DNA from: Desulfobacteraceae bacterium
Lineage (GTDB): Bacteria; Desulfobacterota; Desulfobacteria; Desulfobacterales; UBA5616
Direction of reading: 5' to 3'
DNA: 64,000 nt
Assembly: GCA_013791935.1 (NCBI GenBank)
Contig: VMSV01000196.1
Coordinates: 1-64,000, forward strand
A model generated the notes under the pieces. The model saw only the letters and a list, made by a program, of their open reading frames with translations, made no database searches and was not told the DNA's origin. Positions 4,269-25,539 of this stretch are shown piece after piece. Each line of letters starts with the position of its first letter. The first letter of the stretch is position 1. The position numbers were made by a program, and so were the translations under genes.

Positions 4269-4844
4269 ATGACTGGAACTCTTGACTCAGAGGAAAAAAG
4301 AAAACTACATTCCGAAATTAATCAGTTAGTAAATCAAAGATTTGTGTTAAATGGCGCCGCGATCACTCTTTTTGGCGTTATCACAGCTTGGGCCATCCCC
4401 AAAAATCAGTCACTACCAGACCCGAATGCTGCAAAACTGGCCTTTACCGCATCTATATTATTAATAATATTGTTATTTGCCCTTTACCTTGTTAGTCACC
4501 TTGCGAGACTTACCACACGAACACTCACAACTTATTTGATTGTACGTGGCGAATCACAATGGGAGTGTGATTGGAAAAATTATCGTGATAAAAAGAGCTA
4601 CATTGCATACACAAAAAGTCAAACGTTACTTTTCTTAGTGCTTGGCTTTTTATCCACAATTGCACCATTAATTTTCCTATCCATATTTAAAATCACTCTC
4701 AATCCAAAAGAAGCGCTTTATGCTTTAGTGCTTTTTGAGCTTTTGTACACAGTTTTTGTTGCAGGGATGGGGTTCGGCAACTGGTTTTATCCGGAGCAAG
4801 ATATTGAAAACCGATGGAATGAAGTGTTGAATAATAATCGGTGA
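4269..4844 (+). CDS. Unknown four-helix membrane protein
   Basis: The 191-residue protein has a charged N-terminal helix and four hydrophobic segments (about residues 28-46, 66-90, 118-140 and 146-168). It ends in a short charged tail. No family is recognised. A strong AAGGAG site lies before the ATG. It is followed 38 bases later by another four-helix protein and then by a radical SAM gene on the same strand, so the three may be co-transcribed. Pairs of small multi-helix proteins are common as membrane effectors in defence cargo, but nothing here proves that. Confidence 0.75.
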   Translation: MTGTLDSEEKRKLHSEINQLVNQRFVLNGAAITLFGVITAWAIPKNQSLPDPNAAKLAFTASILLIILLFALYLVSHLARLTTRTLTTYLIVRGESQWECDWKNYRDKKSYIAYTKSQTLLFLVLGFLSTIAPLIFLSIFKITLNPKEALYALVLFELLYTVFVAGMGFGNWFYPEQDIENRWNEVLNNNR

Positions 4845-4882: not shown

Positions 4883-5536
4883 ATGGATTTATTCAATAAG
4901 ATTACTATCTCCAATTTAATTTGGTATATCGTTCCTGGACTGGGAATGATTTTTTTTGTTTTATTTCCAATATTAGCCTTAAACCCTCACATTGTGAAAT
5001 TATTTTATGAGCAAATTGGTGAAATTGGCTTATTAATTTTAGGAACCATTCTTGGGTTTCTATTTGAAGGTTTGCGCTTATATAGGTTCAGGCCAGGTTA
5101 TTCGACAATAAAAAAGGGATTCTTTGATGAACTTACGAAAACTATTGGAACTGATTTGAATCCTTACTTTGTCCAATCGCATGTGGATGATTTTGCTAGA
5201 ACAAAAAATTATGTGGGTCTAAGCTTGCATCATGCAATTTGGATAATGTTAGGTCAATTTACCATATTGTTTTTATTCGAGGCCCTTTTTTGGGGAATAA
5301 TGGCCATATATAATTATTATTATATCACTCAATACTATTCTCTATTCGGTTTGAATATATCAAGAATAGAATACATAACATATTGCGGAGCATTCTCGGT
5401 CACTTTTTTATCAATTGGTTTGCGGTTAATGGTGACCTCAACTCAAGATCAGAAAAATACAAATAATATGTTTTTAAATTTTGCAAAACAGTATCGACAT
5501 GACCTTCAAAAATTACTTAATATGGAGGTAGATTGA
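4883..5536 (+). CDS. Unknown four-helix membrane protein
   Basis: The 217-residue protein has hydrophobic segments at about 12-33, 46-66, 118-148 and 163-185. A charged loop lies between the second and third, and a Lys/Arg/His-rich tail follows. I do not recognise the family. It shares layout but no obvious sequence with the preceding membrane protein. It lies between that gene and the radical SAM gene, with 59 bases to the latter. GC is very low, as in the rest of the cargo block. Confidence 0.75.
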   Translation: MDLFNKITISNLIWYIVPGLGMIFFVLFPILALNPHIVKLFYEQIGEIGLLILGTILGFLFEGLRLYRFRPGYSTIKKGFFDELTKTIGTDLNPYFVQSHVDDFARTKNYVGLSLHHAIWIMLGQFTILFLFEALFWGIMAIYNYYYITQYYSLFGLNISRIEYITYCGAFSVTFLSIGLRLMVTSTQDQKNTNNMFLNFAKQYRHDLQKLLNMEVD

Positions 5537-5595: not shown

Positions 5596-6492
5596 ATGCC
5601 GGAAATTAAACAACATTTTTTTTATTTTGAAGGTAAAACAGCCGATTTTTTCCCATCAGTAGGATTAAAACTATCGGGAAATTGCAGATTCAAATGCCCC
5701 TTTTGTTGTGAGCCAAATCGAACTCAACAAGTATATCCCTTGAATAATTTTATTTCCATAGCAAACATTCTTAAAAAATTGGGCACAAGACGATTATGTT
5801 TTACGGGGGGCGACCCGCTATCACATAAAGATATAGGGGCCTTGCTGCAGTACACCAAGTCTTTAGATTTTTTTAATTTGTTATTAACAACAGATGCCAA
5901 GGCTCTAAAAGAAAAGCAAAGAGAGGTGATACCATTTGTTAGTGCCGTGCGTTTTAGTGTTCATGCAATTGGTTCAGAACATGATAATATAGTTGGCTGT
6001 CGTGGCTCTTTTAGAGCTACAGAAAAAATGATTGATGTCTTGCACGCAGAAAAGATTCCCTGCTACGTCACAACAGTTATAACTACAAAAAATATTATGT
6101 TCGTTAAAAATATTTTAGAATGGTGCGTTAAAAATGGAATTCAATCATATTTTATATTCGGTCTCATGCGAAGCGGTTTAGGCAATGACTTTATAAGAAA
6201 GTATGGGCAAGTTTCAGAACAAGAAATTTCAAATATTATTTCTATACTAAGAAATAAATATTCTCCTGAAGATATCGAAATTATATATTATGACTACTAT
6301 AAACAGGCTGATTGTGTATTGGTATATGGTGATGGAAAAATTATAATTGATCCATATCCAAAGCCGCCTACTTTTCAACTAGAAATTGGAAATATTTTCT
6401 CAGATACTCGAGAAGACATTTTGAAGTTTTTTTCACACGATCCAAAGAATTACGATGGTTATGTTAATCACTTTTTGAAGCACAAGAAATAA
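5596..6492 (+). CDS. Radical SAM enzyme, function unknown
   Basis: The 298-residue protein has the radical SAM cluster CRFKCPFC (Cys30, Cys34, Cys37; spacing CX3CX2C). FTGGDPL near residues 72-78 is the SAM-binding GGE-like motif. The family cleaves S-adenosylmethionine reductively to a 5'-deoxyadenosyl radical. No C-terminal SPASM cysteine cluster is present, so it is a minimal single-cluster enzyme of the general MoaA/PqqE shape. Prokaryotic viperins are of similar size, but the CNYxCxFCF context is not seen here, so I do not call it one. It is convergent with the methyltransferase operon (38-base gap). The substrate cannot be told from sequence. Confidence 0.85.
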   Translation: MPEIKQHFFYFEGKTADFFPSVGLKLSGNCRFKCPFCCEPNRTQQVYPLNNFISIANILKKLGTRRLCFTGGDPLSHKDIGALLQYTKSLDFFNLLLTTDAKALKEKQREVIPFVSAVRFSVHAIGSEHDNIVGCRGSFRATEKMIDVLHAEKIPCYVTTVITTKNIMFVKNILEWCVKNGIQSYFIFGLMRSGLGNDFIRKYGQVSEQEISNIISILRNKYSPEDIEIIYYDYYKQADCVLVYGDGKIIIDPYPKPPTFQLEIGNIFSDTREDILKFFSHDPKNYDGYVNHFLKHKK

Positions 6493-6530: not shown

Positions 6531-8390
6531 TTAAGGTTTCTTTGGGCTTAAAATTATTAAATATTCCATAACATTTTTTTGGGCGGTTCCGCCATGTGAT
6601 TTATGAACAAATTTCGCAGAATATGAGATAACTTCACAGCCTGTTTTCTGATAGACGCGTTCAACCACCTCACATATATCGGCTTGACCATTATCAGAGT
6701 AGCTCCAAGCGCAATGCCAACCTCTATTCAATATCTTTATAATAATATCTATTATTGTAGCTGTGGGCCTGCTGTTAGTTTTTGTGAAGAATTCAGATCG
6801 GAACCTATCGTTAGGTTTTGGAGTCAGGCCTATACCACTACAAGAAGGATATCTATATTCCACGAGAGTCTCTAAAACGTGATAAAAACGGCTATATTCT
6901 TCTCTTTTGTAAGGAGCATCAAGGTAAACTATAACTGGCACATTATATATCAGCGTATCTAAAGTACATAATGCACTTTCCCAAGGGCCAGGAATCGTTT
7001 CAATTTGATTTTTTGTAGAATGGCTTATTTCTGATAGATTGAGTAACCTGGCTGTAAATTCATGAGTTATTGATTGTGACCTTTTATATAAAATATCAGA
7101 TATATTGTTTTCGTTTAGAGCTAAATAATTTCTTATTGGAGGTTGAGCAAAATGCCCACCATAAGTTGTCCCCAAGAAGCTTGTAGTAGTAATCAAAGCT
7201 CCTAAAGCCCACATTCTCTCTTTCTTTTCTTTTATTATGTCAATTGCATAACGCAAACTATCAATTTCCAAACATTGTCTGAGCCCAAAAAATACATTGG
7301 CAAAATATGTTGTAAATAGACAATAAGGGTAAATTGAATTGTCTTTCCTTCTAATTTGAACCTCTGAGGTTGGGGACCAATCTTTTGTATTACTTGGTTT
7401 GCACAAAACTGGGAACTCGCGGACAAATCTTTTATAATCTTCAAGCAAAGAATCGTCTATCTCTCTACAAAAAACATCCTCTTCGTTTTCAATTTCATCG
7501 GCTAATAATGATTGTAACTCGATAAAATGTTTTTTTGCAATTGGCAAAATTCGCGATAGAAGATCTTTTGCTCCATTCCGGCTAAAACCTCCGCCATGAA
7601 CTACTGACAATATTCTGCAAAACTCTTGAGCATCGGACGAGTACGTTTTCCATATTTTATTAGTGGCACCCGAGACAATTCCAGAACCACACATTAAATC
7701 GACTACTACTCCAGACTCTGGGAGCACGGAAGCGATAGCTTCAACAATAAAACCACATAATGCTCTTTTTGATCCCATGTAGTAGGCTGACCGGGCAAAT
7801 TTGTTGATTTCGGTATTATCGATTATTTTTGCGCGATTTAACTGCGCTTTCACATACTCAATCACTTTGGGGTTAAGAGTGGCGATTGAAGCTTCTGATA
7901 AGTATTTACATTTATTTTTATTTATAAGATTATTTTCAGTCGATATCAGTTTATTATGTGATGATATTAAATTTTTTGTTGCTGAATAAAATAATGGATC
8001 TGTTATAGAATCTTTATTCAATAAATCTATTATCGTATGAGGGTTTATTCGGATAGTATCTTGTTCAAACAATTTCTGAGATCTAGGTTTTTCATCATTT
8101 TTATCACCACACAAAATGATTGAGTCTATCAAGGCTCTTACATCTTTCTTTAATACGAATGAGTGCTTCTCAAACTGATAGGTGGGAAGAATACCTACCT
8201 CTAATATATATTTTAGCTTTTCAGGATCGATGTCCTTTCCTAATTCATTTTGGAGGAAGTCTCTAATGCATTTCTCATTAATAAAAAGGTCCATTTTAGG
8301 AGAATTGGCTGATTTGTTCGGCAAATCAATATCGTCTTTATAAGTATGAACATGAAAAGAAATATTTGTTTTTGTCAATTTATCTTCCAT
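6531..8390 (-). CDS. Large D12-class adenine DNA methyltransferase (DAPY variant)
   Basis: The 619-residue protein carries the D12 order: a GSK motif (YMGSKRALCG near 205), SAM motif I (DLMCGSG, 231-237), and motif IV as DAPY (491-494) in place of DPPY. The words after motif IV (EYSRFYHVLETL) resemble those of the upstream methyltransferase (RSYGHYYHLPETI), so both probably modify adenine N6. About 200 N-terminal residues precede the enzyme and contain a small helical, possibly DNA-binding part. The Pro to Ala change in motif IV is unusual but may be tolerated. It is last in a three-gene leftward operon, five bases after the HAD gene. No restriction endonuclease is recognisable nearby. Confidence 0.85.
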   Translation of the reverse strand: MEDKLTKTNISFHVHTYKDDIDLPNKSANSPKMDLFINEKCIRDFLQNELGKDIDPEKLKYILEVGILPTYQFEKHSFVLKKDVRALIDSIILCGDKNDEKPRSQKLFEQDTIRINPHTIIDLLNKDSITDPLFYSATKNLISSHNKLISTENNLINKNKCKYLSEASIATLNPKVIEYVKAQLNRAKIIDNTEINKFARSAYYMGSKRALCGFIVEAIASVLPESGVVVDLMCGSGIVSGATNKIWKTYSSDAQEFCRILSVVHGGGFSRNGAKDLLSRILPIAKKHFIELQSLLADEIENEEDVFCREIDDSLLEDYKRFVREFPVLCKPSNTKDWSPTSEVQIRRKDNSIYPYCLFTTYFANVFFGLRQCLEIDSLRYAIDIIKEKKERMWALGALITTTSFLGTTYGGHFAQPPIRNYLALNENNISDILYKRSQSITHEFTARLLNLSEISHSTKNQIETIPGPWESALCTLDTLIYNVPVIVYLDAPYKREEYSRFYHVLETLVEYRYPSCSGIGLTPKPNDRFRSEFFTKTNSRPTATIIDIIIKILNRGWHCAWSYSDNGQADICEVVERVYQKTGCEVISYSAKFVHKSHGGTAQKNVMEYLIILSPKKP

Positions 8391-8395
8391 CTATA

Positions 8396-9337
8396 TCACA
8401 ACTTATTCAATTCTTCTTTATATCTTCGTGCGTGAATAACAGTTTTCAACGCCTCAATAGCGCCATCAAGTACACCCCTTCTAGCTACGTAATCACTACA
8501 TTTTTTTGCTTCTTCTGAGGCCGTTTCAACAGAGACACCAATTCCTGACCATGATAGCATTTCAGCATCGTTGTCATTATCCCCAATTCCAAGAATTTGC
8601 TCTCGTGTAAGTCCAAGGATATTGGCAACAATTTTCAAAGCCTCACCTTTATTGCAATTTATAGGTTTTACTTCAATATAAGTACTGCCATGCGTAAATG
8701 AGATATCAGCTATCCCCTTCAAGCTCTTACTTATATCAGCCATTACCTGCGTATTGCCCAAGGTGTGAATTACAACTGCAGATGGGCTTATTGATTTATC
8801 AATTTCAGACCATTCCAGCCATTTAACAGGCATGAAATTATATTCCTTATAAGGTTTATCAACAGATGACCACCCGATAGCGTGCTCTTCAAAATCATCT
8901 TCTCCAAACCATTTACAGCAGTATGCGATAACTTTCACTCGAAATTTTGAAGAAATTTGAACTACCCGAATCATCGACTCATTTGATATTTTTTCTTGAT
9001 GAATAGGCTTATACTTTTTTAAGATTTGACAATCTTTACCATATTTGTACTTTTTTTTAATTATGACACTCCCGTTGTATAATATTATCGGAGTTCCATT
9101 TTTAATCGGGAGCTTCGCAATCAAATGCTCTGCTCCTGACAGTGTGCGGCCTGTCGCTATGATTATCTTAATGTTAGAATTTTTAAATTTATTGGCGAAA
9201 CTTAATATTTTTTCTGGAAGTTCAGATTCATTAGATTCTAGTAACGTCCCATCAAGATCTACGGCAATAAGCCTAATCTTCGAGAAGGGTCTATACAATT
9301 CTAAATTATCTATTGAACTAGGTAATAAATTAGCCAT
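8396..9337 (-). CDS. Cof-type HAD-family phosphatase
   Basis: The 313-residue enzyme has HAD motif I DLDGTL (Asp27 and Asp29), motif II around ATGRT, a conserved Lys in KGEAL and the motif IV run GDNDNDAEML. The long insert between motifs II and III is the C2b cap of the Cof/sucrose-phosphatase subfamily. These enzymes act on small sugar or nucleotide phosphates. The gene overlaps the end of the preceding methyltransferase by eight bases and lies five bases before the next, so it is translationally locked between two DNA methyltransferases. That placement is not one I know. A role in nucleotide or modified-base metabolism is an inference. Confidence 0.9.
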   Translation of the reverse strand: MANLLPSSIDNLELYRPFSKIRLIAVDLDGTLLESNESELPEKILSFANKFKNSNIKIIIATGRTLSGAEHLIAKLPIKNGTPIILYNGSVIIKKKYKYGKDCQILKKYKPIHQEKISNESMIRVVQISSKFRVKVIAYCCKWFGEDDFEEHAIGWSSVDKPYKEYNFMPVKWLEWSEIDKSISPSAVVIHTLGNTQVMADISKSLKGIADISFTHGSTYIEVKPINCNKGEALKIVANILGLTREQILGIGDNDNDAEMLSWSGIGVSVETASEEAKKCSDYVARRGVLDGAIEALKTVIHARRYKEELNKL

Positions 9338-10328
9338 TTTTAACTATATATAGATGGTGCCTTGTTTTAATTGGAGATATTTTGGTTCTATATCCCTTAC
9401 AATCAATGATAAAATCATTAATTTTTCCAAATGGAGAAAGGATTTCTTCAATATTTTTTGAAGGAATGATACCATTATCAGCATAATGAAAAACCAACAA
9501 TTTAAACTTTGCGTTATTTAGAACATCCAATAAAGCTTGCTTTGATTCTATCTTGTTATTAAATTTTGATTTAGTGTTAATTTTAATTGGGATGCCTGAT
9601 TGACCATGCACTACAGGAGTCCCTTCTAAGGCTATTGTCTCAGGCAAATGATAATAGTGACCATATGAACGTTGATTGTAGGGGGGATCAAGATACAGAA
9701 TATCAAAATCGCGTCTTTTAACAAGTTCTTCTGCGGTTTCATTAAAACAATGGCCTTTTCCGTTTAAAGAAGCAGGCATTATAAATTGGAAACGGAATTG
9801 GTTCAAAGCCTTTCGGTGCCATTTTTTTAAAAATGCATAATAAGTGCCTGCTGTATTCGCGACTTTATCTAGACTGTTTATAAGAGAGGCGAGCATTACA
9901 GCTTTTTCTTCCCCATTAATCCAGCCTTTTGCCGACCAAAATGCAATTGCCCTTCTACATGATTGAATCTTTTTTGCGTTATAATTTGTAAAATACTGTC
10001 TATTTTCAGAATATTCCCTTACAAACCAACCATTCTTTGGAGGTAGCGAGTTCATAAAGGTTTCCAAATCTGTTAGGTTATTAAGGTTCAGTTTGTTAAT
10101 AATTTTCTTAAAAGATAGTGGCTTTTCATATTTTAGTCGTGCTTTTTGGAATAGAAAAGGAAATTTCAAAATATCTCCACTCCAAACATCATAACCCATC
10201 GATTTAAAATGTGATGCAACTGAGCCTAAGCCCCCAAAAGGATCGCAAAAGGAACCTATTGGTATTTGCCTTGAAACCAATTCATATATATTATTTATTG
10301 TAGATATTTTAGAACCTATATATCTCAT
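9330..10328 (-). CDS. D12-class adenine DNA methyltransferase
   Basis: The 332-residue protein opens with RYIGSK (motif X of D12 enzymes). It continues with CDPFGGLGSV (SAM motif I, about residues 28-37) and has a canonical DPPY at 214-217 followed by NQRSYGHYYHL. This is the Dam/FokI-type alpha order, indicating N6-adenine methylation. It is the first gene of the methyltransferase-HAD-methyltransferase operon, which is transcribed leftward from the AT-rich region at 10329-11085. The target site cannot be read from the sequence. All catalytic motifs are intact, unlike the DAPY partner. Confidence 0.9.
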   Translation of the reverse strand: MRYIGSKISTINNIYELVSRQIPIGSFCDPFGGLGSVASHFKSMGYDVWSGDILKFPFLFQKARLKYEKPLSFKKIINKLNLNNLTDLETFMNSLPPKNGWFVREYSENRQYFTNYNAKKIQSCRRAIAFWSAKGWINGEEKAVMLASLINSLDKVANTAGTYYAFLKKWHRKALNQFRFQFIMPASLNGKGHCFNETAEELVKRRDFDILYLDPPYNQRSYGHYYHLPETIALEGTPVVHGQSGIPIKINTKSKFNNKIESKQALLDVLNNAKFKLLVFHYADNGIIPSKNIEEILSPFGKINDFIIDCKGYRTKISPIKTRHHLYIVKNG

Positions 10329-11085: not shown

Positions 11086-11913
11086 TTAGGCTTTGCCATT
11101 GGAAGGGGTTTTAAAAATTTCCTCAACAACCCCTTCAAAAGATGAAACCGTGTCCGCCAACCCTATTTGAACTGCCTCTCCACCGCTAAAAAGGCCAGCC
11201 ATGGTGTCATTAACCATTTTTTGATCAAGTTTCCGGTTTCTGGCCACTGCCTCCACAAGAATCTGATAGGCGTAATCAACCTGTTTCTGAATAGCCTCCC
11301 TGCCCCGATCCGATAAGGGGGCATCCGATGACCTTTCATTTACTTTTTCACCGGCATATACAGTGGTATATTTTACTCCAAATTTTTCATTGTAGCTGGA
11401 TAGATCCTCATGAACCGCAATAATTCCGATAGACCCAACTATCGCAGTCCTGGAAAGAAATATTTTATCCGTTGCCGAGGCAATCAGATACCCTGCTGAA
11501 AGGGCCTTTTCGTTTGCCATGGCATAGATAGGTTTAATTTCCCTGGAGTTGTATATTTCATCTGCAAAATCGAAAACACCGGCAATGTCTCCCCCTGGTG
11601 TGTCCAGGTCAAATAGGATGGCCTTGACATCCGGGTTTTTTATAGCCGAACGAAAATCTTTCCGAAGATCCATGTAAGAGGTGCGCCAACTCCATCCGGA
11701 TCTCTTATAAACCATCCCACCGTTTACAGAAATCACGGCAAGGCCGTCAGAAACCTCCAGGCAGCTTGTAGAGTCTTCAAACATGGACACGGAGGTTTCG
11801 GTATTTTGATTGTTTAATGCGACAAGGATTTCTCTTGCAGCCTCGATAGAAACCGCCAAAGGTTTTTGGATCAGGTGAAAGGGAGAAAAATGGTTTTCAT
11901 TCATTTTAAACAT
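11086..11913 (-). CDS. S49-family (SppA/phage head protease-like) serine peptidase
   Basis: The 275-residue protein contains the ClpP-like S49 fold: DTPGGDIAG, a nucleophile Ser139 in KALSAGYLIAS, and a Lys190 in YAGEKVNE that fits the second member of the Ser-Lys dyad. No signal peptide is visible, which argues against a periplasmic SppA and for the phage type that matures capsids. It is the last gene of the leftward phage-like block, 132 bases after the coiled-coil protein. In a satellite it could process helper capsid proteins; that is inference. A second in-frame ATG lies three codons in. Confidence 0.82.
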   Translation of the reverse strand: MFKMNENHFSPFHLIQKPLAVSIEAAREILVALNNQNTETSVSMFEDSTSCLEVSDGLAVISVNGGMVYKRSGWSWRTSYMDLRKDFRSAIKNPDVKAILFDLDTPGGDIAGVFDFADEIYNSREIKPIYAMANEKALSAGYLIASATDKIFLSRTAIVGSIGIIAVHEDLSSYNEKFGVKYTTVYAGEKVNERSSDAPLSDRGREAIQKQVDYAYQILVEAVARNRKLDQKMVNDTMAGLFSGGEAVQIGLADTVSSFEGVVEEIFKTPSNGKA

Positions 11914-12045
11914 CAGCGTTTCCTTTTATGGATTCTTTATGAAATCCCGGTCCGGCAAGGTGAACATGGAAGGTTTGGGGAGACACCTTGCCGGTCCATG
12001 GCCCCCGGGATTGCCATTTAACATGGAGCTTTCTCCCCAAAGCAA

Positions 12046-12795
12046 TTACCCGGTCATCACACAGGGGTCAGTTCTGCATGAAGAACATTGGGCTTTACCC
12101 GTATCTTCGATTGCAAGGCAATTCGAGAACGTGTTCAGCCCGGCCTTTTCCAGAATCCTTTGGATCTCGGTTTCCGGGTCATAATTTTCAAGGGATTTTT
12201 CAAGACCGGCTTTTTCCTTTGACAGTCTGTTCAATTTCATTTTCATCGAAGTCCCATCTGTAGTTGATTTTCTTTCCTTTTCAACCTGCCGTTTAAAATA
12301 TTCGTAATCCTGGCCCAATAGCGTTGACCGGTTTATGTTCAACTCAGGGCCTGTTTTCATAAGCCCTGTGCTGGGTGTGTAAGAGTATCTTTCGCCTTCA
12401 ATTTGTTCAAAATAAACCTGACATTTAGCCGCCATAGAGAGGAATTCGTTTAGGCTTTCTTGCTTAATTCGTGACAGATTGGTGCATTCTTGTTTGATCT
12501 CATCAGCCCGCCTTTTAAAAGTAACAGGGATAGAATCGGCCAATTTGCCTTTTAGCTTTTTCAAATAAAGAGAGCAGGCGTCAATTTTCGACTTGGTATC
12601 GGCAAACACCCTCTTTTCCTGTTCAAGCAGTTCTCCGACCTCCTGGTTCATAAAGGCTTTTAATTGCAAATCAGTGACACGCTCATTTGCAGCGTTGTAT
12701 TGCGCTCTTAAATCATTTTGAAATTGAACGACCTCAACAAAATTTTGGGCCAATTCTTCCAAGCTTGCGTTTTCTTTCGACAGTTTTGAAAACAT
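12046..12795 (-). CDS. Coiled-coil protein with C-terminal cysteine cluster, unknown
   Basis: The 249-residue product is mostly charged alpha helix with heptad-like patterns, interrupted around residue 140-160. It ends in a small CSSCRTDPC cluster that could bind metal. An AAGGATATCCC ribosome site precedes the ATG. No family is recognised. It sits between a 72-residue unknown protein and the S49 protease, where phages often place scaffold or head-associated proteins. A scaffold-like role is a guess from position and composition only. Confidence 0.7.
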   Translation of the reverse strand: MFSKLSKENASLEELAQNFVEVVQFQNDLRAQYNAANERVTDLQLKAFMNQEVGELLEQEKRVFADTKSKIDACSLYLKKLKGKLADSIPVTFKRRADEIKQECTNLSRIKQESLNEFLSMAAKCQVYFEQIEGERYSYTPSTGLMKTGPELNINRSTLLGQDYEYFKRQVEKERKSTTDGTSMKMKLNRLSKEKAGLEKSLENYDPETEIQRILEKAGLNTFSNCLAIEDTGKAQCSSCRTDPCVMTG

Positions 12796-12834
12796 TGGGA
12801 TATCCTTTCTTGGTTTAAAGAGAATCAGGTATTC

Positions 12835-13053
12835 TTACATAGTACTTTGATGCGTTTTATCTTCCCGGAAGCCTTTGGCCCTGGCTTGTGCGTTTTCAAT
12901 TAAATGATTGCCCTGGCCGCTTGCCGGAAAGCCTGATTCTGACTTTTCAATTAATGTATCATTTCTTTTTTTTGCATCAGCAATCAAGGGATTGCCGGTT
13001 GATGAAATGATTCCCCGATTTTCTGGCTTGTTTGATTGTATGGTGCTTAGCAT
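12835..13053 (-). CDS. Small hydrophilic protein, unknown
   Basis: The 72-residue product is polar, with two similar short stretches (GNPLIADAKKR and GNHLIENAQAR) that suggest a short internal repeat. The ATG has a strong AAAGGAAAGAG site and overlaps the end of the preceding gene by seven bases. This supports co-translation. No family is recognised. Confidence 0.6.
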   Translation of the reverse strand: MLSTIQSNKPENRGIISSTGNPLIADAKKRNDTLIEKSESGFPASGQGNHLIENAQARAKGFREDKTHQSTM

Positions 13054-13337
13054 GGCTCTTTCCTTTCTTTGGGTTTGGTATGGTTTTTAAAATCGACCTT
13101 AATCACTTTGTTCCCTATGGGTCGCTTGGTAAAGGCTTCCACGTGTCTGTCTATTTCCTGGACCGTATGAAACATGGGTTTGGACTGCTCAAACAGCGTC
13201 ATCATGGCTTGGACCCCAAACGGACTTTTAAAGGAGTACTTGTCATTCAGATCCAGGCTCTTTTTAACGATGTCGGTAATGTCGTTGGCCAGGTGTTTTA
13301 ATTTCTTAATTTCCTCTAAATTTTCGCGTCTCATCAT
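13047..13337 (-). CDS. Small charged protein of the replication block, unknown
   Basis: The product has 96 residues from the ATG at 13337; a TTG at 13376 would add 13. It is basic and largely helical. It lies directly beside the putative origin and overlaps the start of the next small gene by seven bases, so the two are likely co-translated. No family is recognised. Neither start has a strong ribosome site. Confidence 0.55.
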   Translation of the reverse strand: MMRRENLEEIKKLKHLANDITDIVKKSLDLNDKYSFKSPFGVQAMMTLFEQSKPMFHTVQEIDRHVEAFTKRPIGNKVIKVDFKNHTKPKERKEPC

Positions 13338-13430
13338 AAGAATGTTTTTCGTCCGTTCCCCGCAAAACCAATCCAAGGAGAGGAATGGTCCTGTGGTCTT
13401 TTGGTTAAAGGTTCCGACCGTTTTTTAAAT

Positions 13431-13626
13431 GGTCACCGTTTAGGTGACAATCCGGTGACTATCCAGGTGAGGGTCGACCATCAGCAAACCCGTTTCGGTT
13501 CTATCTTTGGTGACTATGGTGACTATTTTTCTAGCAAATATTAAATATTAAAAAATAAAATATTAATAATAATAAAGTTATGTAAAAAAGCGTGTAAAAG
13601 TCACCTAAGGTCACCAAAGGTCACCG
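13431..13626. other. Putative replication origin of the satellite
   Basis: Hexamers GGTGAC stand at 13443, 13454, 13509 and 13518, with a GGTGAG at 13466. The reverse form GTCACC stands at 13432, 13600, 13610 and 13620. They flank a very AT-rich core (about 13524-13598). The block lies just downstream of the primase-helicase gene. P4 alpha protein, the relative of that enzyme, binds GGTGAACA-type iterons at its origin. Similarity of repeat, layout and neighbour makes an origin likely; function is inferred. Confidence 0.65.
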
Positions 13627-13629
13627 GAA

Positions 13630-15303
13630 TCAGATTTCAAGTTTAAGCCCAATTCCATAATATCGATAAACACCCGAGACCCTTCTTTTCTCAAAGCGCT
13701 TGGTCATCATGGACCCAAAGGCCTTCATTTTTGGCACCCGTTTTGAAATGTTCAGTTCAAACCATTCCTCGAAGGCCTCGTATAATTCTTTTGCCCCGGC
13801 GGTCGCATCCGGGTTGATGATGCAGCAGTCATCCAGAAAATCAGCCAGCATGTCAGAATCCCTTTTGAATTCTGCGGTTGCTTCCACAACTTTAAGAGGC
13901 GGGCAAAGGCCTTGCTTTTGATACAGATGGCACCCCCGGATCAGCCAAGCCAGTATTTCGGGTGCCTCATCCTTCATTTTCTCAAACAAATGCTTATCAG
14001 CCCGCCGCTCATTGTCTGCCTGGGGCTCACGATTGACAAAGGACACCTCAAAACGCACTCTTAAGCACCTCTCCCAAAAAGCGAAGTCGTCCGCCGGTGC
14101 ATTCGGGATATGGTTTGTGGATAGGATAAGGGTGTGGGTCGGTTCAAATTTGGTGAACATCTTATCGTGGGGAAGGCGTGCGATCACGGTATCGTCACTT
14201 GACAACCACTTGACCCTGGCCGGTGAAATCTTTTGATGAGGGTCCGTTTCCGACGCAATGGCAAGGTTAACCCGGTAAAGCATCATCAGATCCGGTGAAG
14301 GCCCGGAGGAATTTTTAAACCGTCCCTGGTCGAGAAGCATCTCGCTTGGAATGACGGTTGCCATTGGACCCAGGATGAACAGCAATATTTTGATCAGAAG
14401 GCTTTTGCCGTTTCTGCCCTGGCCTTCAAAAATGATAAATATGTGATCCTTGTTTTTTCGAAGAAGGGTCATGCCAAGCAGCCGCTGGAGGAACAAAACC
14501 ATTTCCGGATCACCGTTCATGGTTTCATACAGAAACTTGAGGAATCTCTTTGGGGTACCATACCAATCAGCCAATGGATGAGGGATGCATTGGGATTTCA
14601 GATCTTCCGGGAGACCTGGCCGGACAAGGCTTGAAACAAGGTTGTAAATATTTTTCTCGCAATGGGAAAAGCAAATTTCATTGGGCTCCGTGTCGAACTC
14701 TTCATTTAAAACGCCAAGGCCATTATAAGTGGTATGGGCGAAAAACACACACTCGTTCCGGCCTTTGTTTGTCCGGAGCCATCTCGCCAGTTTCAGGCAC
14801 CCCTTCATGGTTTTTTTCAGCCTGAATATTTTCGGGCTTTCCGGATCAAGTTCTTTGATCTCCTTGTCAATGTCAAAGGCCTCTTCCAAGAGCCATTCCA
14901 CGATGCCCTCAATAGCTGCCAGATACTGCCCTTTTTGATCAATTTGCCAGTTCGGCCCTTTGTCGTAGAACTCCCATTGACTGGTGGTTTTGTTGTGCAA
15001 AAAACATTTTCTATATCTGAACTTATAGAGTTCTGAGACGCCAACAGCCCCGGTATCGTAGTACCCGGTATCCCGGATTAAGGCCTTTGCGCTTTCCCTT
15101 GATGGCTGGATACTTGTGGACCCAGATCCACCGTCATCCAGATCCGGTCCGGATTCTTCGGAAACCCTTAGCTTGACCACATCGGCGATCTGCCTATCGG
15201 TTTGCTGTAGAATAAAAGAATCAAGGCATGATACCGGGAAGCCCGGATCTTCGTCCGCCTCACCGTGTCCTGAGACCCTATATTCAATATTATCATCAGG
15301 CAT
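13630..15303 (-). CDS. D5/P4-type primase-helicase (SF3 ATPase)
   Basis: The 557-residue protein has the phage/plasmid primase C-terminal architecture: a D5_N-like region, then the SF3 helicase with Walker A GQGRNGKS near residues 293-300, a Walker B-like stretch ending ASETD, and a sensor motif in LILSTNHIPN. The N-terminal part has no obvious archaeo-eukaryotic primase motif, so it may act as helicase with a reduced or separate priming function. In P4 the related alpha protein binds iterons and unwinds the origin; the GGTGAC array starts four bases after this gene. The zinc-ribbon HTH gene lies 15 bases upstream, so the two are probably one operon. Confidence 0.88.
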   Translation of the reverse strand: MPDDNIEYRVSGHGEADEDPGFPVSCLDSFILQQTDRQIADVVKLRVSEESGPDLDDGGSGSTSIQPSRESAKALIRDTGYYDTGAVGVSELYKFRYRKCFLHNKTTSQWEFYDKGPNWQIDQKGQYLAAIEGIVEWLLEEAFDIDKEIKELDPESPKIFRLKKTMKGCLKLARWLRTNKGRNECVFFAHTTYNGLGVLNEEFDTEPNEICFSHCEKNIYNLVSSLVRPGLPEDLKSQCIPHPLADWYGTPKRFLKFLYETMNGDPEMVLFLQRLLGMTLLRKNKDHIFIIFEGQGRNGKSLLIKILLFILGPMATVIPSEMLLDQGRFKNSSGPSPDLMMLYRVNLAIASETDPHQKISPARVKWLSSDDTVIARLPHDKMFTKFEPTHTLILSTNHIPNAPADDFAFWERCLRVRFEVSFVNREPQADNERRADKHLFEKMKDEAPEILAWLIRGCHLYQKQGLCPPLKVVEATAEFKRDSDMLADFLDDCCIINPDATAGAKELYEAFEEWFELNISKRVPKMKAFGSMMTKRFEKRRVSGVYRYYGIGLKLEI

Positions 15304-15318
15304 ATGCAGGAGAGCCTT

Positions 15319-15705
15319 TTACCGGTTTACGAGGAGTTGTTCGGCTATCTTTTCCCGCCAGCGTCTCACGGTGGATGCATTGGCTTTGATCGCTTTGGCG
15401 ATTTCTACATCCTTCCACCCGAGTTTAAAAAGAAGGCAGCACAAAAAAATGGCGGAAAAAGGGACCTTGTTATGTGAAAAAATAGTGTCGGTGATGGCAA
15501 AAAACTTTTCCTTGCAGACCATGCAGAAGCATTGCTGGTTTGACCAGAACCTTTCCGGCAGCTGGCCATATTCAGCGCCACAATGTGGGCAGGCCGGAGA
15601 CTTATGGATCTTCCTGATAAAATAATCCTCGCACCGCTCTTCATTGAAAAGATTTGGCGAAATGTCATTGAATACATCATTTATGAAGTCTATTCCCATG
15701 AACAT
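15319..15705 (-). CDS. Zinc-ribbon helix-turn-helix protein
   Basis: The product has about 128 residues from the ATG at 15705. It has a zinc ribbon (CPHCG, then CMVC about 25 residues later) like the N-terminal part of IS1595-type transposases. A helix-turn-helix near the C-terminus follows (DVEIAKAIKANASTVRRWR). No catalytic transposase domain follows, so it is likely a regulator or an origin-associated DNA-binding protein of the element. An AAAGGAATTTG site precedes the start. It is the first gene of the leftward replication run. Confidence 0.75.
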   Translation of the reverse strand: MFMGIDFINDVFNDISPNLFNEERCEDYFIRKIHKSPACPHCGAEYGQLPERFWSNQQCFCMVCKEKFFAITDTIFSHNKVPFSAIFLCCLLFKLGWKDVEIAKAIKANASTVRRWREKIAEQLLVNR

Positions 15706-16111
15706 CAAATTCCTTTCATTGATTGTGATTTAACTCCCAGTTCATTTTCCATTCCATTTCTAAATTTCAAATGTAACCGAAACCCGCGCCTCTGTGACCC
15801 GTATAGAAAAAAAGTTCCGGGAAGGACCCGCAGGCCTCGGGCATTGCCTGAGCCCGTTTGACCTTTGGCCTGTTTGGTTTTGGTGGGTGGTCCGGAGGGA
15901 GATAAAACCGGCTTTTTTTGACCAGAAAATCGATAAATAAGAAATAAATATAGTCTGTAAAAAGTATAAAATAAAAAGATGGATAGAGATAATTTTAAAT
16001 GAGTAGAGAGAGTGTTTCATTTTTCGATTCCGCTTCGGACCAATATATTCCGCAAATTGCCTAAATTTATCCGGATAGAAAGAAGGGTGGAATTATATTA
16101 TTTGTGATTAT
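15706..16111. other. Intergenic region of the satellite
   Basis: About 400 bases without a convincing gene. The centre is GC-rich, and both sides are AT-rich. An 86-codon frame on the minus strand (15760-16020) lacks a ribosome site and shows no protein-like pattern. It probably carries the promoter for the leftward replication genes. Confidence 0.45.
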
Positions 16112-16357
16112 TCAACATTTGGTTCTTGAATTTAACCATCCAACAAGATGGGTTCTCAAGACCGCTGGGGATCGCCCCACATGAAAAATCTTAGAGGCGA
16201 TCGCTTCATCACGGGTTTTGCCAGTAACCATATTTCGAAAGCCACCACGTGAATAAGGAAACCCAGGCAGTCTATCTTTATCAGCTTCTTTAAGTAAAAT
16301 AGGATTAGGCCAACCATTTTCCTCTGCGATACCTTCCCAAAGTTTATTGTCTTCCAT
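16112..16357 (-). CDS. AlpA-like DNA-binding protein (regulator or excisionase)
   Basis: The 81-residue protein carries LPGFPYSRGGFRN, a spaced helix, then a basic segment ending VLRTHLVGWLNSRTK. This layout resembles the AlpA/excisionase class of winged-helix proteins in P4-like satellites. There AlpA activates the integrase or acts as excisionase. An AAAAGGGTATT ribosome site precedes the ATG. The TTGCAA array lies 75 bases upstream of its start, a natural place for its own operator or that of a partner. Confidence 0.65.
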   Translation of the reverse strand: MEDNKLWEGIAEENGWPNPILLKEADKDRLPGFPYSRGGFRNMVTGKTRDEAIASKIFHVGRSPAVLRTHLVGWLNSRTKC

Positions 16358-16432
16358 TTTTAATACCCTTTCTTAAAAAAAAATTATATTTAACTGTACG
16401 ATCTGACGCAAAAATACATTGTGCATCAATAA

Positions 16433-16510
16433 TTGCAATACGTGCAAATGGCTTATTTTTGCAAACCCAAGAGTTGCAAATTAATAGGTTTGCAATCCAA
16501 AGGATTGCAA
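16433..16510. promoter_or_regulatory. Five-copy TTGCAA operator array
   Basis: The palindrome TTGCAA occurs at 16433, 16459, 16474, 16490 and 16505. The last four are 15 to 16 bases apart, about one and a half helical turns. Flanking bases are partly shared. The array lies between the AlpA-like gene and the 302-residue unknown gene, both read leftward. A regular array of short palindromes is typical of a phage-type operator or a partition or replication control site. Confidence 0.65.
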
Positions 16511-16596
16511 ATTTGGATAGTTGGTTCTTATGCAGAAAAATAAGGGGCGGATTAAATCAATTCACTTTAGGTGACAAAAGAATGATCATTTGAAGA

Positions 16597-17505
16597 CTAA
16601 AGCAAACCTTCTTCTTGAAGGTCTCTTCTTATAGTTGCGGTGGTTACTATCATTTCACTAACCATTTTTTTTAAGCTATTTATTTCTTCTGTTGTAGCGG
16701 CACTCTGAAGCAATTTCATTAATGCATCAATTTCTTTCTTTTTAATCCCAGGTTTCAACAAAGCCGACTCAACTATCCTATATTTCAAAACTGCACCAAT
16801 AAGTCGATCTCTAACCATTGCAGATTTATTTAAACGCACATCCTCGAACTGTTTCTCATGAAATGCGCTTGCCACTAATGTCTTTCTTTCACGTTTACGA
16901 GTCGAAATTATTTTTATGCCTTTTTTACTTTTGTCGGAATTCGGACCTTTTATCGAGCCCGAAAGTATGGTTTCGCTTAAGGCTTTATGAATAATTCTTT
17001 CTGTTGGTAAACTCAGTAGGAATAACGAGGTAAAGTTTATTTTGTCCAAATTACTTTCAAGCCATACATAGAAAAATATTAAGACTTCCAAATGAACAAA
17101 AAACAGATCTTCGTCATCAGGTGGGAAGTAATATGGGCTAAGCATATCTTCAAAAAAATCTGTTATCAAATAATAATCAGGTTCGTGAAAAAAATCATAC
17201 TTAAAATTGCTTACTTTAATAAGGCTTTGGTCTTTTTCGGGAAATCTAGGTCTTATGCCAAAATCCTTTTTCCCCCTAAGCTCTTTATATAACTTATCAA
17301 GTGTCTCGTGATAATATTTATTTTCACTTTTAGACGCAACAAGAGCCTTACGGGATATATGGTACCGAAAGGCCAACTTTCTGAGGAAAAAAGATTGTTG
17401 AGAAATTACTTGAAAAATTAATATGTTATCTATTCGATTCTCCGACGCTATCAATTGACTGATAAAGTATTTGTCTAATTTATCATTTTCTGTTTTCTCA
17501 TTCAT
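16597..17505 (-). CDS. Unknown 302-residue protein next to the integrase
   Basis: The product is not recognised. It is largely helical, with charged N-terminal and C-terminal parts and a more hydrophobic middle (about residues 145-170). The end (residues about 286-302) contains TATIRRDLQEEGLL, which resembles the recognition helix of a DeoR/winged-helix domain. It could be a regulator of the element. It lies between the TTGCAA array and the integrase, read in the same direction as both. Confidence 0.65.
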   Translation of the reverse strand: MNEKTENDKLDKYFISQLIASENRIDNILIFQVISQQSFFLRKLAFRYHISRKALVASKSENKYYHETLDKLYKELRGKKDFGIRPRFPEKDQSLIKVSNFKYDFFHEPDYYLITDFFEDMLSPYYFPPDDEDLFFVHLEVLIFFYVWLESNLDKINFTSLFLLSLPTERIIHKALSETILSGSIKGPNSDKSKKGIKIISTRKRERKTLVASAFHEKQFEDVRLNKSAMVRDRLIGAVLKYRIVESALLKPGIKKKEIDALMKLLQSAATTEEINSLKKMVSEMIVTTATIRRDLQEEGLL

Positions 17506-17593
17506 GCCTTCTGCAATTCCTTCTTAGATGACCCGGCAATGCTTGCAAGGGTAGTAAACTCTTCGATTCATCAACCTATGCCGGGTCAGATAA

Positions 17594-18841
17594 TCATGCC
17601 TTTTCAGTCCTTTTCAAATCATAAAATTCCGAAATCTTTTGTTGACTTTTTTCCAGCCGTTTAACAGCAGCTTTAAAGGTGTCCGGCTGCAAATGCGCAT
17701 AACGCCGGACCATCGCAAAAGAACTATGACCCATCAATCCTTGCAATATATATAGATCGGTGCCAGCCGCCGCATGCCAACTTGCAAACGAATGCCGGCA
17801 ACTGTAAAAAACCAGTTTATGCCTTCTGTCAGTGATTCCGTCATTAAAACCTTTTTGATCAACCACCTCCTGGAACAGACGCGGTGTTTCAAGATATGGC
17901 CTTTTCCCGGATCTCATGAAAATCAATGTATCTGGCTTGGCGTCTTGGGACTTTGAATGACGATCGACCAGAACTTGCTTTAAATCATCGGTCATGAATG
18001 CATGTCTGTTTTTGGAGTTCTTGGTATCCAGAATTTGAATTTGTTCGTTTCCAAAATCTATTACTCCCCAGGTCAATTTTAAAATTTCACTGGATCTCAG
18101 ACCGCACCGGAAAGCCAACAAAACCATTGTATATGTGTCCAGGTCTTTGGTTTTTAATTCAGATAGGAGATTGTCGGCTTCATCCCGAGAAAAAAAGCTT
18201 AACCGACTGTTATCCGCTTCCGGAGGCTTAACCTGGGAAACAGGATTCTTCCCATAAAAAATGTCATTGCGAATCGCATAATTAAAAACCTGCCGTGCAA
18301 CAGCAAGAGCATATTTAATGGTACGGGGAGTAAGATGCAAGTCACCCATGTTTTTTTTGATCATTTCAAAATGAAAAGGTGCTATTTTCCCGATCGGAAG
18401 GTTTCCGATCACGGGCGCTAAATATCTCTCAAAGAGTGGGACCTCGCGTTTCCATCCTTTTCGGGTTCTTTTGGTGGCTTTGTTAATTTCTAAATATTTA
18501 CCCCACACATCGGAAAATTTAATGTTTTTTCGCTCTATTTCTTCGTCAGCCTTTTTTTGGGCCTTCTCATCTTTATTTTGCTTAAGTCTTTTAGCCTTTA
18601 AAGTAGTCGGTCCTGTACCATGGGTTTTGTTCTCTTTGAGCTCGTGAACTTTGCTTATGGCTTTTTCAAGGGTCATACCATCAAAGAGCCAGCCAAATCC
18701 TTCCTCAAGCCTCGTCTCACCAACAGTGTGGCGATATTGGTAAAATACATCGCGCTGGGTTTTTATCCCCTTTTTTCGGGTTCTGGTAGGGTGGTAGCGG
18801 AACCTTAATCCCTTAACTGATGTTTGGTGCCATGTGAACAT
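17594..18841 (-). CDS. Tyrosine recombinase (integrase) of the tRNA-Leu element
   Basis: The 415-residue protein has the parts of a phage integrase: an N-terminal arm-binding domain, a core-binding SAM-like domain, and the catalytic domain. Visible are box I (FRCGLRSSEILKLTW, catalytic Arg), a YSCRHSF box II in which the usual His of HxxR is Tyr, LMGHSS, and the nucleophile in RRYAHL. It reads leftward and starts 410 bases inside attR. The Tyr for His change occurs in some active integrases. It is the obvious enzyme for insertion into tRNA-Leu. Confidence 0.93.
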   Translation of the reverse strand: MFTWHQTSVKGLRFRYHPTRTRKKGIKTQRDVFYQYRHTVGETRLEEGFGWLFDGMTLEKAISKVHELKENKTHGTGPTTLKAKRLKQNKDEKAQKKADEEIERKNIKFSDVWGKYLEINKATKRTRKGWKREVPLFERYLAPVIGNLPIGKIAPFHFEMIKKNMGDLHLTPRTIKYALAVARQVFNYAIRNDIFYGKNPVSQVKPPEADNSRLSFFSRDEADNLLSELKTKDLDTYTMVLLAFRCGLRSSEILKLTWGVIDFGNEQIQILDTKNSKNRHAFMTDDLKQVLVDRHSKSQDAKPDTLIFMRSGKRPYLETPRLFQEVVDQKGFNDGITDRRHKLVFYSCRHSFASWHAAAGTDLYILQGLMGHSSFAMVRRYAHLQPDTFKAAVKRLEKSQQKISEFYDLKRTEKA

Positions 18842-19251
18842 TTATTCCCCCGGTATTTTGCCAATTTTAAATGGTGGCTAAGCATGGGTGGTGGTTAAAT
18901 TAATAATCATTTAATAATAAATAGTTACGTTTAATCAACTCTCTTTTTATACTTGATCTAAGGCTTTCTTTTCAGGGAAATCCTCCGGGTTAAAAAACGG
19001 TGGCGAAGTGGTGGTTTCTCCATAAAGCCTTGCTCTGTAAGGCCTTACGGGAAGCGCCTTGGGCGATTTTTAAAAAAATAATTCATTTTGATTTTGATAA
19101 ATTCCTCCGTAAATTTCGCCACCAAAAAACCACCATTTAATTATGATTTTGGATGATTTTAGATTTTGAAGGATGAAGCACACATTAGATGTATATAAAT
19201 GATATGTCAACAAAAAATGACAGAATGTTGAAATACGTGATGGTCAATTTT
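18842..19251. promoter_or_regulatory. Integrase leader and right-end arm region
   Basis: The 410 bases between the integrase start and attR contain no gene. AACCACC-type words stand at 18887-18897 and 19008-19016 (inverted) and at 19118-19135 (direct, 11-base period). They match those just inside the left end at 537-556. The region likely holds the integrase promoter and the right arm sites used with attR. Confidence 0.55.
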
Positions 19252-19311
19252 GAGGACTCAAAATCCTCCGGGGGCAACCCCATGGGAGTTCGATTCTCCC
19301 CCTCGGCACCA
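19252..19311 (+). repeat. attR: 3' copy of tRNA-Leu
   Basis: These 60 bases match 406-465 with two differences in the variable arm. There is no 5' half, so it is not a working tRNA. Under the usual model of insertion into a tRNA 3' end, this is the original host 3' half, displaced by the element. The tRNA-type terminator that follows at 19323 supports that. Confidence 0.92.
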
Positions 19312-19567: not shown

Positions 19568-19759
19568 CTCTCAATATTGTAATAAGAAAGCGGTCAAATC
19601 ATCGAGGTCTCCAGCCTCGCCCAAAAGGCGGGAGGGAAATTTCATGTTTCGTCTAAAATAAGAAAAAAAGTTGCAATGTGGCTTATTATGATTTAATTTA
19701 GACTCAAAGGTGACAATTTGGCACCAAAAAAACCGCTATTAGATTGGAAAGGCAAAAAT

Positions 19760-20044
19760 ATGTTGGCCAATAATAAAAAAATAGAACGCATCACTGCAAG
19801 GGTGTCTGAGGATATCAGAAACAGACTTGCTGAAGCGGCAGCCTTTTCCGGGGCCACATTGAATCAGTTTTTGGTTCAGGCAGGCGTGGAGAAGGCAGAG
19901 TCCATTATCGAAAAAGAACGTATCGTCAACCTGTCATACAAGGATGCCGAAGTCTTTTTCAGTGCCATTGAAAGTCCGCCAAGGCCAAATTCAAAATTAA
20001 AGAAAGCCGCAAAAAAATTCAAGGCTTCCGGACTGAATGAATAA
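19760..20044 (+). CDS. tacA: TacA-type antitoxin (DUF1778, ribbon-helix-helix)
   Basis: From the ATG at 19760 the product has 94 residues. The N-terminal part RITARVSEDIRNRLAEAAAFSGATLNQ is the ribbon-helix-helix DNA-binding motif of DUF1778 antitoxins. The C-terminal tail is the toxin-neutralising arm. It overlaps the GNAT toxin gene by eight bases, as usual for tacAT. The complex is expected to repress its own promoter. Confidence 0.9.
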   Translation: MLANNKKIERITARVSEDIRNRLAEAAAFSGATLNQFLVQAGVEKAESIIEKERIVNLSYKDAEVFFSAIESPPRPNSKLKKAAKKFKASGLNE

Positions 20045-20543
20045 TTATAAAATAGAGCCTTTAAGCAAACATCATAATCGGAAAGATTTTGACTGCGGTG
20101 AAGAAGCGTTAAATCAATATCTACTGGCGGTGGCTTCTCAACACGCGAAAAAGAGCGTTTCAAGAACCTTTGTTCTAATTGAAGTTGATCGTCCTGAAAA
20201 GATTTTAGGATTTGTTACATTAACAGCTTGTGAAATCAGGGCAGAATTCCTGCCTGATCCATATCCCAAAAAATTCCCTTCGAAAGTGTCAGGGGCTAAA
20301 ATCGGAAGATTAGCCATTGATAAAGCCCACCAACAAAAAGGTTTCGGAAGTCAACTTATGGTTTTTGCCATGAGCCAGGCCCTTATTGTCCATGGAAGCA
20401 TTGGACTGGTTGGTATGATGGTTGATGCCAAAAACGATGAAGCAAAAGCGTATTACAGGCATTACGGATTTATACCACTTCCGGATAATTCATTGACGTT
20501 GTTCCTTCCAATCAAAACCATCCAGGAAGCGGTTGAAGATTAA
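20037..20543 (+). CDS. tacT: TacT-type GNAT toxin
   Basis: The 168-residue GNAT acetyltransferase has FDCGEEALNQYLL near the start, IGRLAIDKAHQQKGFGSQLM as the acetyl-CoA binding P-loop region, and YYRHYGFIPL near the end. All are hallmarks of TacT. Such toxins acetylate aminoacyl-tRNA and stop translation. The stop overlaps a minus-strand gene remnant that ends inside it. Confidence 0.92.
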   Translation: MNNYKIEPLSKHHNRKDFDCGEEALNQYLLAVASQHAKKSVSRTFVLIEVDRPEKILGFVTLTACEIRAEFLPDPYPKKFPSKVSGAKIGRLAIDKAHQQKGFGSQLMVFAMSQALIVHGSIGLVGMMVDAKNDEAKAYYRHYGFIPLPDNSLTLFLPIKTIQEAVED

Positions 20544-21104: not shown

Positions 21105-21152
21105 TTGACACTTGAGGATATTTGGTATACTTTATCCGGCATACCGTATACC
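21105..21152 (+). promoter_or_regulatory. Promoter and operator of the AbrB/PIN module
   Basis: TTGACA (21105-21110) and TATACT (21126-21131) form a -35/-10 pair with a short 15-base spacer. The inverted repeat GGTATAC (21124-21130) and GTATACC (21146-21152) overlaps the -10, so autorepression by the antitoxin complex is likely. The ATG at 21170 follows an AGGAGTAACC site. Confidence 0.65.
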
Positions 21153-21169
21153 ATAAATTAGGAGTAACC

Positions 21170-21403
21170 ATGAGCAAGGTAACCGCTAAATTCCAAATCA
21201 CCATCCCATCTGAGGTGCGAACGGAAATGAACATCATGCCGGGTGTGGAGATGGGGTTTAAAAAAGAGAAAAATCGCTATTATCTGACCAAGAACCCAAG
21301 AGTTAACCCCATTGAAAAATGGCGTGGGGCAATTAAAGGCAAGATGCGTTCAGATGAAATGATGAAAAACATGAGGGGGTATGGCATTGAAAGTATCGAT
21401 TGA
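21170..21403 (+). CDS. AbrB/SpoVT-type antitoxin
   Basis: From the ATG at 21170 (ribosome site AGGAG) the product has 77 residues. The N-terminal half (SKVTAKFQITIPSEVR) is the swapped-hairpin AbrB fold used for DNA binding by MazE/VapB antitoxins. The C-terminal helical tail would wrap the toxin. It overlaps the PIN gene by 23 bases. The inverted repeat upstream is the likely autoregulation site. Confidence 0.88.
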   Translation: MSKVTAKFQITIPSEVRTEMNIMPGVEMGFKKEKNRYYLTKNPRVNPIEKWRGAIKGKMRSDEMMKNMRGYGIESID

Positions 21404-25510: not shown

Positions 25511-25539
25511 CGCTCAAATTTAACGAAAAGGCATCCTCC

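Follow-up and report, generated by a model that had tools for sequence, protein, structure and literature searches.

We found that three consecutive genes in a 64,000-nucleotide stretch of DNA from a Desulfobacteraceae bacterium (assembly GCA_013791935.1, contig VMSV01000196.1; hereafter the window) are found in unchanged order in 12 independent loci, that is in 11 besides the window, from six named phyla and one viral contig. They encode a DNA adenine methyltransferase (M1), a HAD phosphatase (HAD) and a second, larger DNA adenine methyltransferase (M2). Because of this recurrence in 11 further loci, the grouping is more than chance, and what might pass for a chance trio in a single satellite proves to be a system shared across phyla. 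We propose that M1-HAD-M2 is the fixed core of a mobile multigene system whose most likely function, judged from the genes around it, is anti-phage (anti-invader) signalling coupled to DNA adenine methylation (probability of about 0.55).

Two methyltransferase genes enclose a phosphatase gene

The trio lies on the minus strand. M1 (9330..10328) is a D12-class enzyme of 332 residues with a DPPY motif (YLDPPY) that matched Pfam PF02086 (E 3e-24) and the PADLOC Type II MTase model (E 5e-64). HAD (8396..9337) is a Cof-type HAD-IIB phosphatase of 313 residues (Pfam PF08282, Hydrolase_3, E 6e-43) that scored 93.3 against the TIGR01484 cut-off of 41.8. Its catalytic motifs are intact (DLDGT / ATGRT / K / GDNDND), so that it has both the fold and the DxDGT, S/T, K and GDxxxD residues of its class. 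M2 (6531..8390), also of the D12 class, has 619 residues and a DAPY motif (YLDAPY); it matched PF02086 in two stretches (E 1e-8) beginning at residue 204, which leaves an N-terminal extension of about 200 residues. M1 and HAD overlap by 8 nucleotides, and a gap of 5 nucleotides separates HAD from M2. An earlier note on this DNA had described three leftward genes with these identities, overlapping or 5 bases apart, and the open reading frames and Pfam matches bear this out.

Both methyltransferases contain motifs I and IV and are predicted to methylate adenines. The predicted structure of M2 is nearest to E. coli Dam and T4Dam, and Foldseek gave a weak likeness of its N-terminal extension to the Alba-type DNA-binding fold (E about 0.2); the AlphaFold models were of moderate confidence (mean predicted local distance difference test scores of 75 and 72). 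As the earlier note had also remarked, there is no recognisable endonuclease in the gene set, and we found none in the window's element or in the related loci examined. No copy of the system was found in E. coli genomes.

The core is kept across six phyla

We searched an M1 profile against 85,000 genomes and viral contigs, and in addition sampled Pseudomonas and Herbaspirillum-family genomes. In variant A, which accounts for 10 of the 12 loci, genes for a GGDEF protein and a small methyltransferase (MT) are inserted between HAD and M2. The profile scan yielded this M1-HAD-GGDEF-MT-M2 order in six further genomes and one viral contig (L110), and the Pseudomonas and Herbaspirillum-family sampling added two. 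Variant A is present in Planctomycetota (L031), Lentisphaerota (L032), Clostridiales of the Bacillota (L033) and Bacteroidales of the Bacteroidota (L034, where MT is fused to M2). In the Pseudomonadota it is carried by Herbaspirillum frisingense (L035), a Herbaspirillum relative (L192), Pseudomonas peradeniyensis (L036), a second Pseudomonas (L191) and a Bradyrhizobium plasmid (L019). The best plasmid matches of M2 and of HAD both fell on this plasmid, 6 kb apart; its locus reads M1-HAD-X-[IS1380]-GGDEF-MT-M2, interrupted by IS1380 and with M2 in two pieces.

Variant B comprises the window and PHAR01000004 from Deltaproteobacteria bacterium HGW-8 (G134; L023/L030), which belongs to the window's phylum. 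It has neither GGDEF nor MT, and genes for a radical S-adenosylmethionine (SAM) protein and a membrane protein adjoin the trio. In PHAR01000004 all genes are on one strand, in the order membrane protein, radical SAM, M1 and HAD::M2, the last being a fusion of HAD and M2 in a single protein of 945 residues. The carriers of the system include a satellite, a plasmid, prophage-like contigs and integrase-linked loci. Viral contigs gave no match when scanned with the single HAD or M2 protein, and only the already known contig or unrelated matches when compared with radical SAM, membrane-protein, GGDEF, HAD and M2 profiles.

First, the 12 system M1 proteins form one clade (support 100/98) against 45 other M1 relatives, a clustering equalled in 0 of 500 shuffles, and the relatives outside this clade have no HAD. 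Second, an adjacent HAD was found in 8 of the 144 M1-family loci of two scans, and the same 8 are those with M2; one further HAD match was weak and 7 kb off. Third, the core junctions are overlaps of up to 119 nucleotides or gaps of at most 5, almost all being overlaps or gaps of 0-2 nucleotides, and HAD overlaps M1 in nearly all loci. The earlier note held that the grouping would be chance if HAD homologues were not kept beside the methyltransferases in other genomes; HAD is kept in 12 of 12 loci, with its four catalytic motifs in each. Given that identity to the window proteins is 35-50% for M1 and 27-44% for HAD, their linkage has, by this measure, outlived long divergence. The window M2 is 30-46% identical to seven other system M2s. 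M1 keeps DPPY throughout, and M2 has DPPY or DAPY according to lineage, a distribution that marks DAPY as an inherited variant and not as decay.

Loci without HAD were set aside as ordinary methyltransferase contexts, namely that of a D12 paralogue in the G073 genome (C104) and those of M2-like matches in G025, G075, Dyadobacter and Acinetobacter. The Dyadobacter and Acinetobacter proteins, which neighbour endonucleases and are annotated as DNA adenine methylases, represent a possible origin of the M2 catalytic domain.

Variant A joins the core to a GGDEF protein and, in four loci, to putative effectors

The GGDEF protein of variant A has about 830-864 residues. The Pfam GGDEF domain was detected in each of the 7 members scanned (best E 7e-18), together with a weak Cas10-palm similarity, and it keeps the metal-binding Asp and the GDE core. 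According to the Hypr rule, Ser at position 348 is found in enzymes that make cyclic GMP-AMP (PMC6456294). The Clostridiales protein has Ser here and the others have Asp or Asn, and therefore the product is not generally predictable. In 8 of 8 members, the C-terminal 240 residues matched (E<=1) a model of archaeal-type thymidylate synthase; the best match (E 3e-13) is below the curated cut-off and the catalytic Cys is absent. Since no similarity emerged from a profile comparison with two ordinary ThyA proteins, we label this tail thymidylate-synthase-like only tentatively; no solved structure matched it. MT, encoded by the next gene, is a class I SAM methyltransferase.

Patatin phospholipases and SLATT proteins are effector classes of nucleotide-signalling immunity, and both were found beside the core. 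In L033 and L034, which belong to two phyla, a patatin phospholipase is encoded by the first gene, 12 and 26 nucleotides upstream of M1; these proteins score 266 and 241 against the equivalog cut-off of 200 of the NCBIfam CBASS_lipase model (NF041079). In both Pseudomonas loci (L036 and L191), a gene for a SLATT_4 membrane protein adjoins the core and is convergent with M2, with scores of 94 and 90 against a cut-off of 55; the two proteins are 73% identical to each other. The presence of CBASS-type phospholipases and SLATT effectors next to the core is the main reason why we prefer signalling as its function.

In L192, a gene at 6876-8234 (plus strand), convergent with M2, encodes an MBL-fold protein with an SH3 domain. 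It resembles the defence-associated MBL nucleases LmuA and RTasMBL, and might be another effector type.

The window copy is flanked by radical SAM and membrane protein genes

In the window, a radical SAM protein of 298 residues (CxxxCxxC; Pfam Radical_SAM E 6e-14) is encoded on the plus strand at 5596..6492, convergent with M2 and ending 38 nucleotides from the M2 end, as the earlier note had described. At 4883..5536 (plus strand) lies the gene of TM217, a membrane protein of 217 residues with about 4 hydrophobic helices by hydropathy, which is our candidate effector. PHAR01000004 has homologues of both: the radical SAM gene, whose product is 44% identical to that of the window, is 34 nucleotides upstream of M1, and the TM217 homologue (35% identical) adjoins it. 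The orientation of the two genes relative to the trio differs between the loci. Since both genes are kept in two loci at such divergence, the comparison argues that they belong with the trio, and the earlier note, while right about the position of the radical SAM gene, treated it as a mere neighbour. Variant B consists of these two loci only.

By sequence, the radical SAM protein is placed between the SkfB, viperin-like and MoaA/PqqE groups. It matched the PADLOC pVip model (E 6e-12), with PqqE/MoaA-type models scoring equally well, and reached 30.9 bits against the viperin equivalog cut-off of 180 (NF038283). TM217 matched no Pfam family and is not detectably SLATT by profile comparison. We also considered as parts of the system a second possible effector, TM191 (4269..4844, plus strand; 191 residues, 4 hydrophobic helices, sub-threshold PycTM match with E 0.098), and a Ser/Thr kinase encoded at 1333-2634; neither is counted among the genes conserved with the core, and no TM191 homologue was found in the PHAR01000004 locus.

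The kinase gene is near the left end of the carrier element, and its product has an N-terminal domain of about 150 residues and resembles PD-T4-6-type defence kinases (E 1e-45), with no specific system indicated. Near the trio copy of PHAR01000004 there are likewise a kinase gene and a PP2C gene.

A signalling model and its alternatives

The following model would account for these arrangements. M1 and M2 would methylate adenines, a mark that reports on or protects the state of the cell's DNA. Invasion, or a lost methylation state, would turn on a nucleotide-producing module, that is the GGDEF protein in variant A and perhaps a viperin-like radical SAM protein in variant B. The nucleotide product would then open a membrane-damaging effector, whether phospholipase, SLATT or, in the window, the four-helix protein TM217. 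Finally, HAD would destroy or trim the phosphorylated product (or its breakdown form), thereby keeping the system off in healthy cells. Such a model predicts that M1-HAD-M2 stays constant while the signal and effector modules are exchanged, as seen. The earlier note had suggested a defence linked to methylation whose effector produces or removes a phosphorylated signal, and this is partly supported; the circumstantial case for it is strong in the ten loci of variant A, with GGDEF in the operon and a phospholipase or SLATT in four of them, whereas a CBASS-like defence function is only weakly suggested for the window copy, which has no cyclase.

With more reserve, and at somewhat less than even odds, we consider that the system might represent a new immunity class. 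The methyltransferase pair and HAD would govern two exchangeable parts, a nucleotide-signal module (GGDEF with its thymidylate-synthase-like domain, or radical SAM) and a membrane-killing effector, and DNA, through its methylation state or its breakdown products, would be read out as a second messenger. If true, this would connect methylation self-marking with second-messenger abortive infection, both of them pillars of bacterial immunity. It would also give the HAD phosphatases of defence loci a role, and account for the carriage of such sets by satellites, prophages and plasmids.

Several observations weigh against signalling. Effectors are recognisable in only 4 of the 10 variant-A loci, and the window copy has no GGDEF in Pfam and PADLOC scans, which makes its signal source conjectural. 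The core is rare, being present in about 0.3-0.7% of the sampled Pseudomonas or Herbaspirillum-family genomes (2 of 350 for Pseudomonas, seed included in all these counts), and this rarity limits effector statistics. Several loci come from metagenome bins; the L034 contig is 9.9 kb long, and L033 breaks inside M2. Moreover, part of the same pattern is also expected from a hypermodification pathway whose cofactor chemistry is exchangeable, and the thymidylate-synthase-like tail, the small methyltransferase and the several SAM enzymes per operon also fit nucleotide or base modification.

DNA hypermodification or anti-restriction is the main alternative, even if we regard it as unlikely; base hypermodification was also a possible role named in the earlier note. 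Accessory SAM enzymes (radical SAM, or MT with the thymidylate-synthase-like domain) and HAD would build a modified nucleotide or cofactor that M1 and M2 place on adenines, shielding mobile-element DNA from restriction. HAD and radical SAM enzymes do act in base-modification pathways, all loci have two D12 enzymes and no nuclease, the carriers are satellites, a plasmid and prophage-like contigs, and the thymidylate-synthase-like domain was detected in all eight members tested. However, that domain is without its catalytic Cys, the GGDEF catalytic residues are kept, and phospholipases above the CBASS cut-off and SLATT effectors have no base-modification role.

Less probable again is a methylation-guarded addiction module, similar to a toxin-antitoxin system, in which a membrane toxin is kept in check by constant methylation or a constant nucleotide product, so that a cell losing the element or the product would die. 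The mobile carriers and the membrane-active partners would suit it, as would the precedent of Panoptes, in which a GGDEF-like palm enzyme represses a membrane effector (2TM) (PMC12657218, PMC12657230). Against it, effectors were not found in every locus; as to the sense of control, the present data do not separate activation from repression.

Paired D12 methyltransferases occur in known restriction-modification (R-M) systems, and M2 relatives (25-30% identity) lie beside BglII/BstYI-type endonucleases in Dyadobacter (L020) and Acinetobacter (L021) plasmids. Nevertheless, an ordinary type II-like modification pair for an asymmetric site, with one methyltransferase per strand and a hitch-hiking metabolic phosphatase, is very improbable and already contradicted by synteny, as the predicted HAD active site is intact in 12 loci from six phyla, HAD is fused to M2 in one of them besides its usual overlap with M1, and no system locus has an endonuclease.

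Relation to known systems

The signalling system that we propose works most like CBASS (cyclic oligonucleotide-based antiphage signalling system) or Panoptes and is a member of neither, because it has no cGAS/DncV-like nucleotidyltransferase (CD-NTase) and no mCpol. With CBASS that uses a CapV-type phospholipase or a 2TM/SLATT effector, it shares a nucleotide-cyclase-type enzyme accompanied by a CBASS_lipase phospholipase or SLATT, as well as a mobile, patchy distribution. An effector lies beside the cyclase in L033, L034, L036 and L191, but not in the window locus. In contrast to CBASS, the polymerase is a GGDEF protein that matches no PADLOC CBASS model and is lacking from variant B, and the constant genes are two DNA methyltransferases and HAD, with the small methyltransferase in the cyclase-containing form. 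Panoptes is a two-gene system of mCpol/OptS and a SMODS-2TM effector, and mCpol has no clear GGDEF motif (PMC12657218, PMC12657230). Both systems pair a GGDEF/Cas10-type palm polymerase with a membrane effector, whereas Panoptes has neither methyltransferase nor HAD, and our loci have a true GGDEF domain, another gene set and no mCpol match.

The system is also not restriction-modification, because there is no endonuclease in the loci examined. It shares DNA adenine methyltransferases in a mobile or defence context with type II R-M systems that have two D12 methyltransferases, with the methylation-associated defence system (MADS) and with bacteriophage exclusion (BREX), and the lack of a recognisable nuclease with BREX. 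Its core differs from these by the absence of an endonuclease, of PglX/BrxC and of MAD proteins, and we know of neither a HAD nor a GGDEF or radical SAM partner in any of the three. Regarding MADS, the window Ser/Thr kinase scored 112 bits against a MAD6 cut-off of 460, and no other MAD protein was found among the window genes scanned.

To our knowledge, no described system links adenine methylation of DNA with both a signal of the cyclic-nucleotide type and an effector of the CBASS type. The arrangement was unfamiliar to the earlier note, and we likewise found no description of it in PADLOC 2023, NCBIfam June 2026 or the open-access literature; subscription papers were outside this search, so that an earlier description is possible. 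The two databases have no model for the whole GGDEF protein, nor for M2 beyond generic domains. The nearest statement in the literature is that HAD phosphatases of no known function are present in defence systems (PMC13092281). The same paper describes DefensePredictor DS-9, a validated two-gene anti-phage system of a metallophosphatase and a HAD phosphatase whose function is not known (PMC13092281). DS-9 thus shares a HAD phosphatase with our system, but no DNA methyltransferase is described with it.

The carrier element and its surroundings

The earlier note had placed the trio in the cargo of a satellite, which the surrounding sequence supports. The carrier is an integrated satellite-like element at a tRNA-Leu gene (379-465), the 3' part of which is duplicated at the right end of the element (19227-19311) as a partial copy of 79 bp with 94% identity. 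An integrase, a D5-type primase and a head maturation protease are encoded within 11086-18841; the tyrosine integrase (17594..18841, minus strand; PHROG integrase E 1e-52) adjoins the duplicated tRNA-Leu end. This layout, in which tRNA-Leu and its duplicated 3' part enclose protease, primase and integrase, resembles that of capsid-piracy satellites.

A 100% identical trio copy in G073:C207 (L015) was dropped as independent evidence, given that its chromosomal flank is also near-identical to the window. This contig, binned to a different family of the order, shares 99.7-99.97% identity with the window even in the chromosomal genes, and differs from it only left of window position 976. Most probably, either both contigs stem from one organism or one of the assemblies contains a contig binned in error.

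To the right of the element, two gene pairs have the look of type II toxin-antitoxin modules, without a PADLOC match for either: an RHH (DUF1778-like) and GNAT pair at 19718-20543, and an AbrB-like and PIN-like pair at 21122-21845. Further on, a group of four overlapping genes (25507-30916) looks like a Wadjet (JetABCD) operon for plasmid defence that has diverged very far; its first gene is unmatched and the others match JetB (E 5e-5), JetC (E 2e-7) and JetD (E 6e-12).

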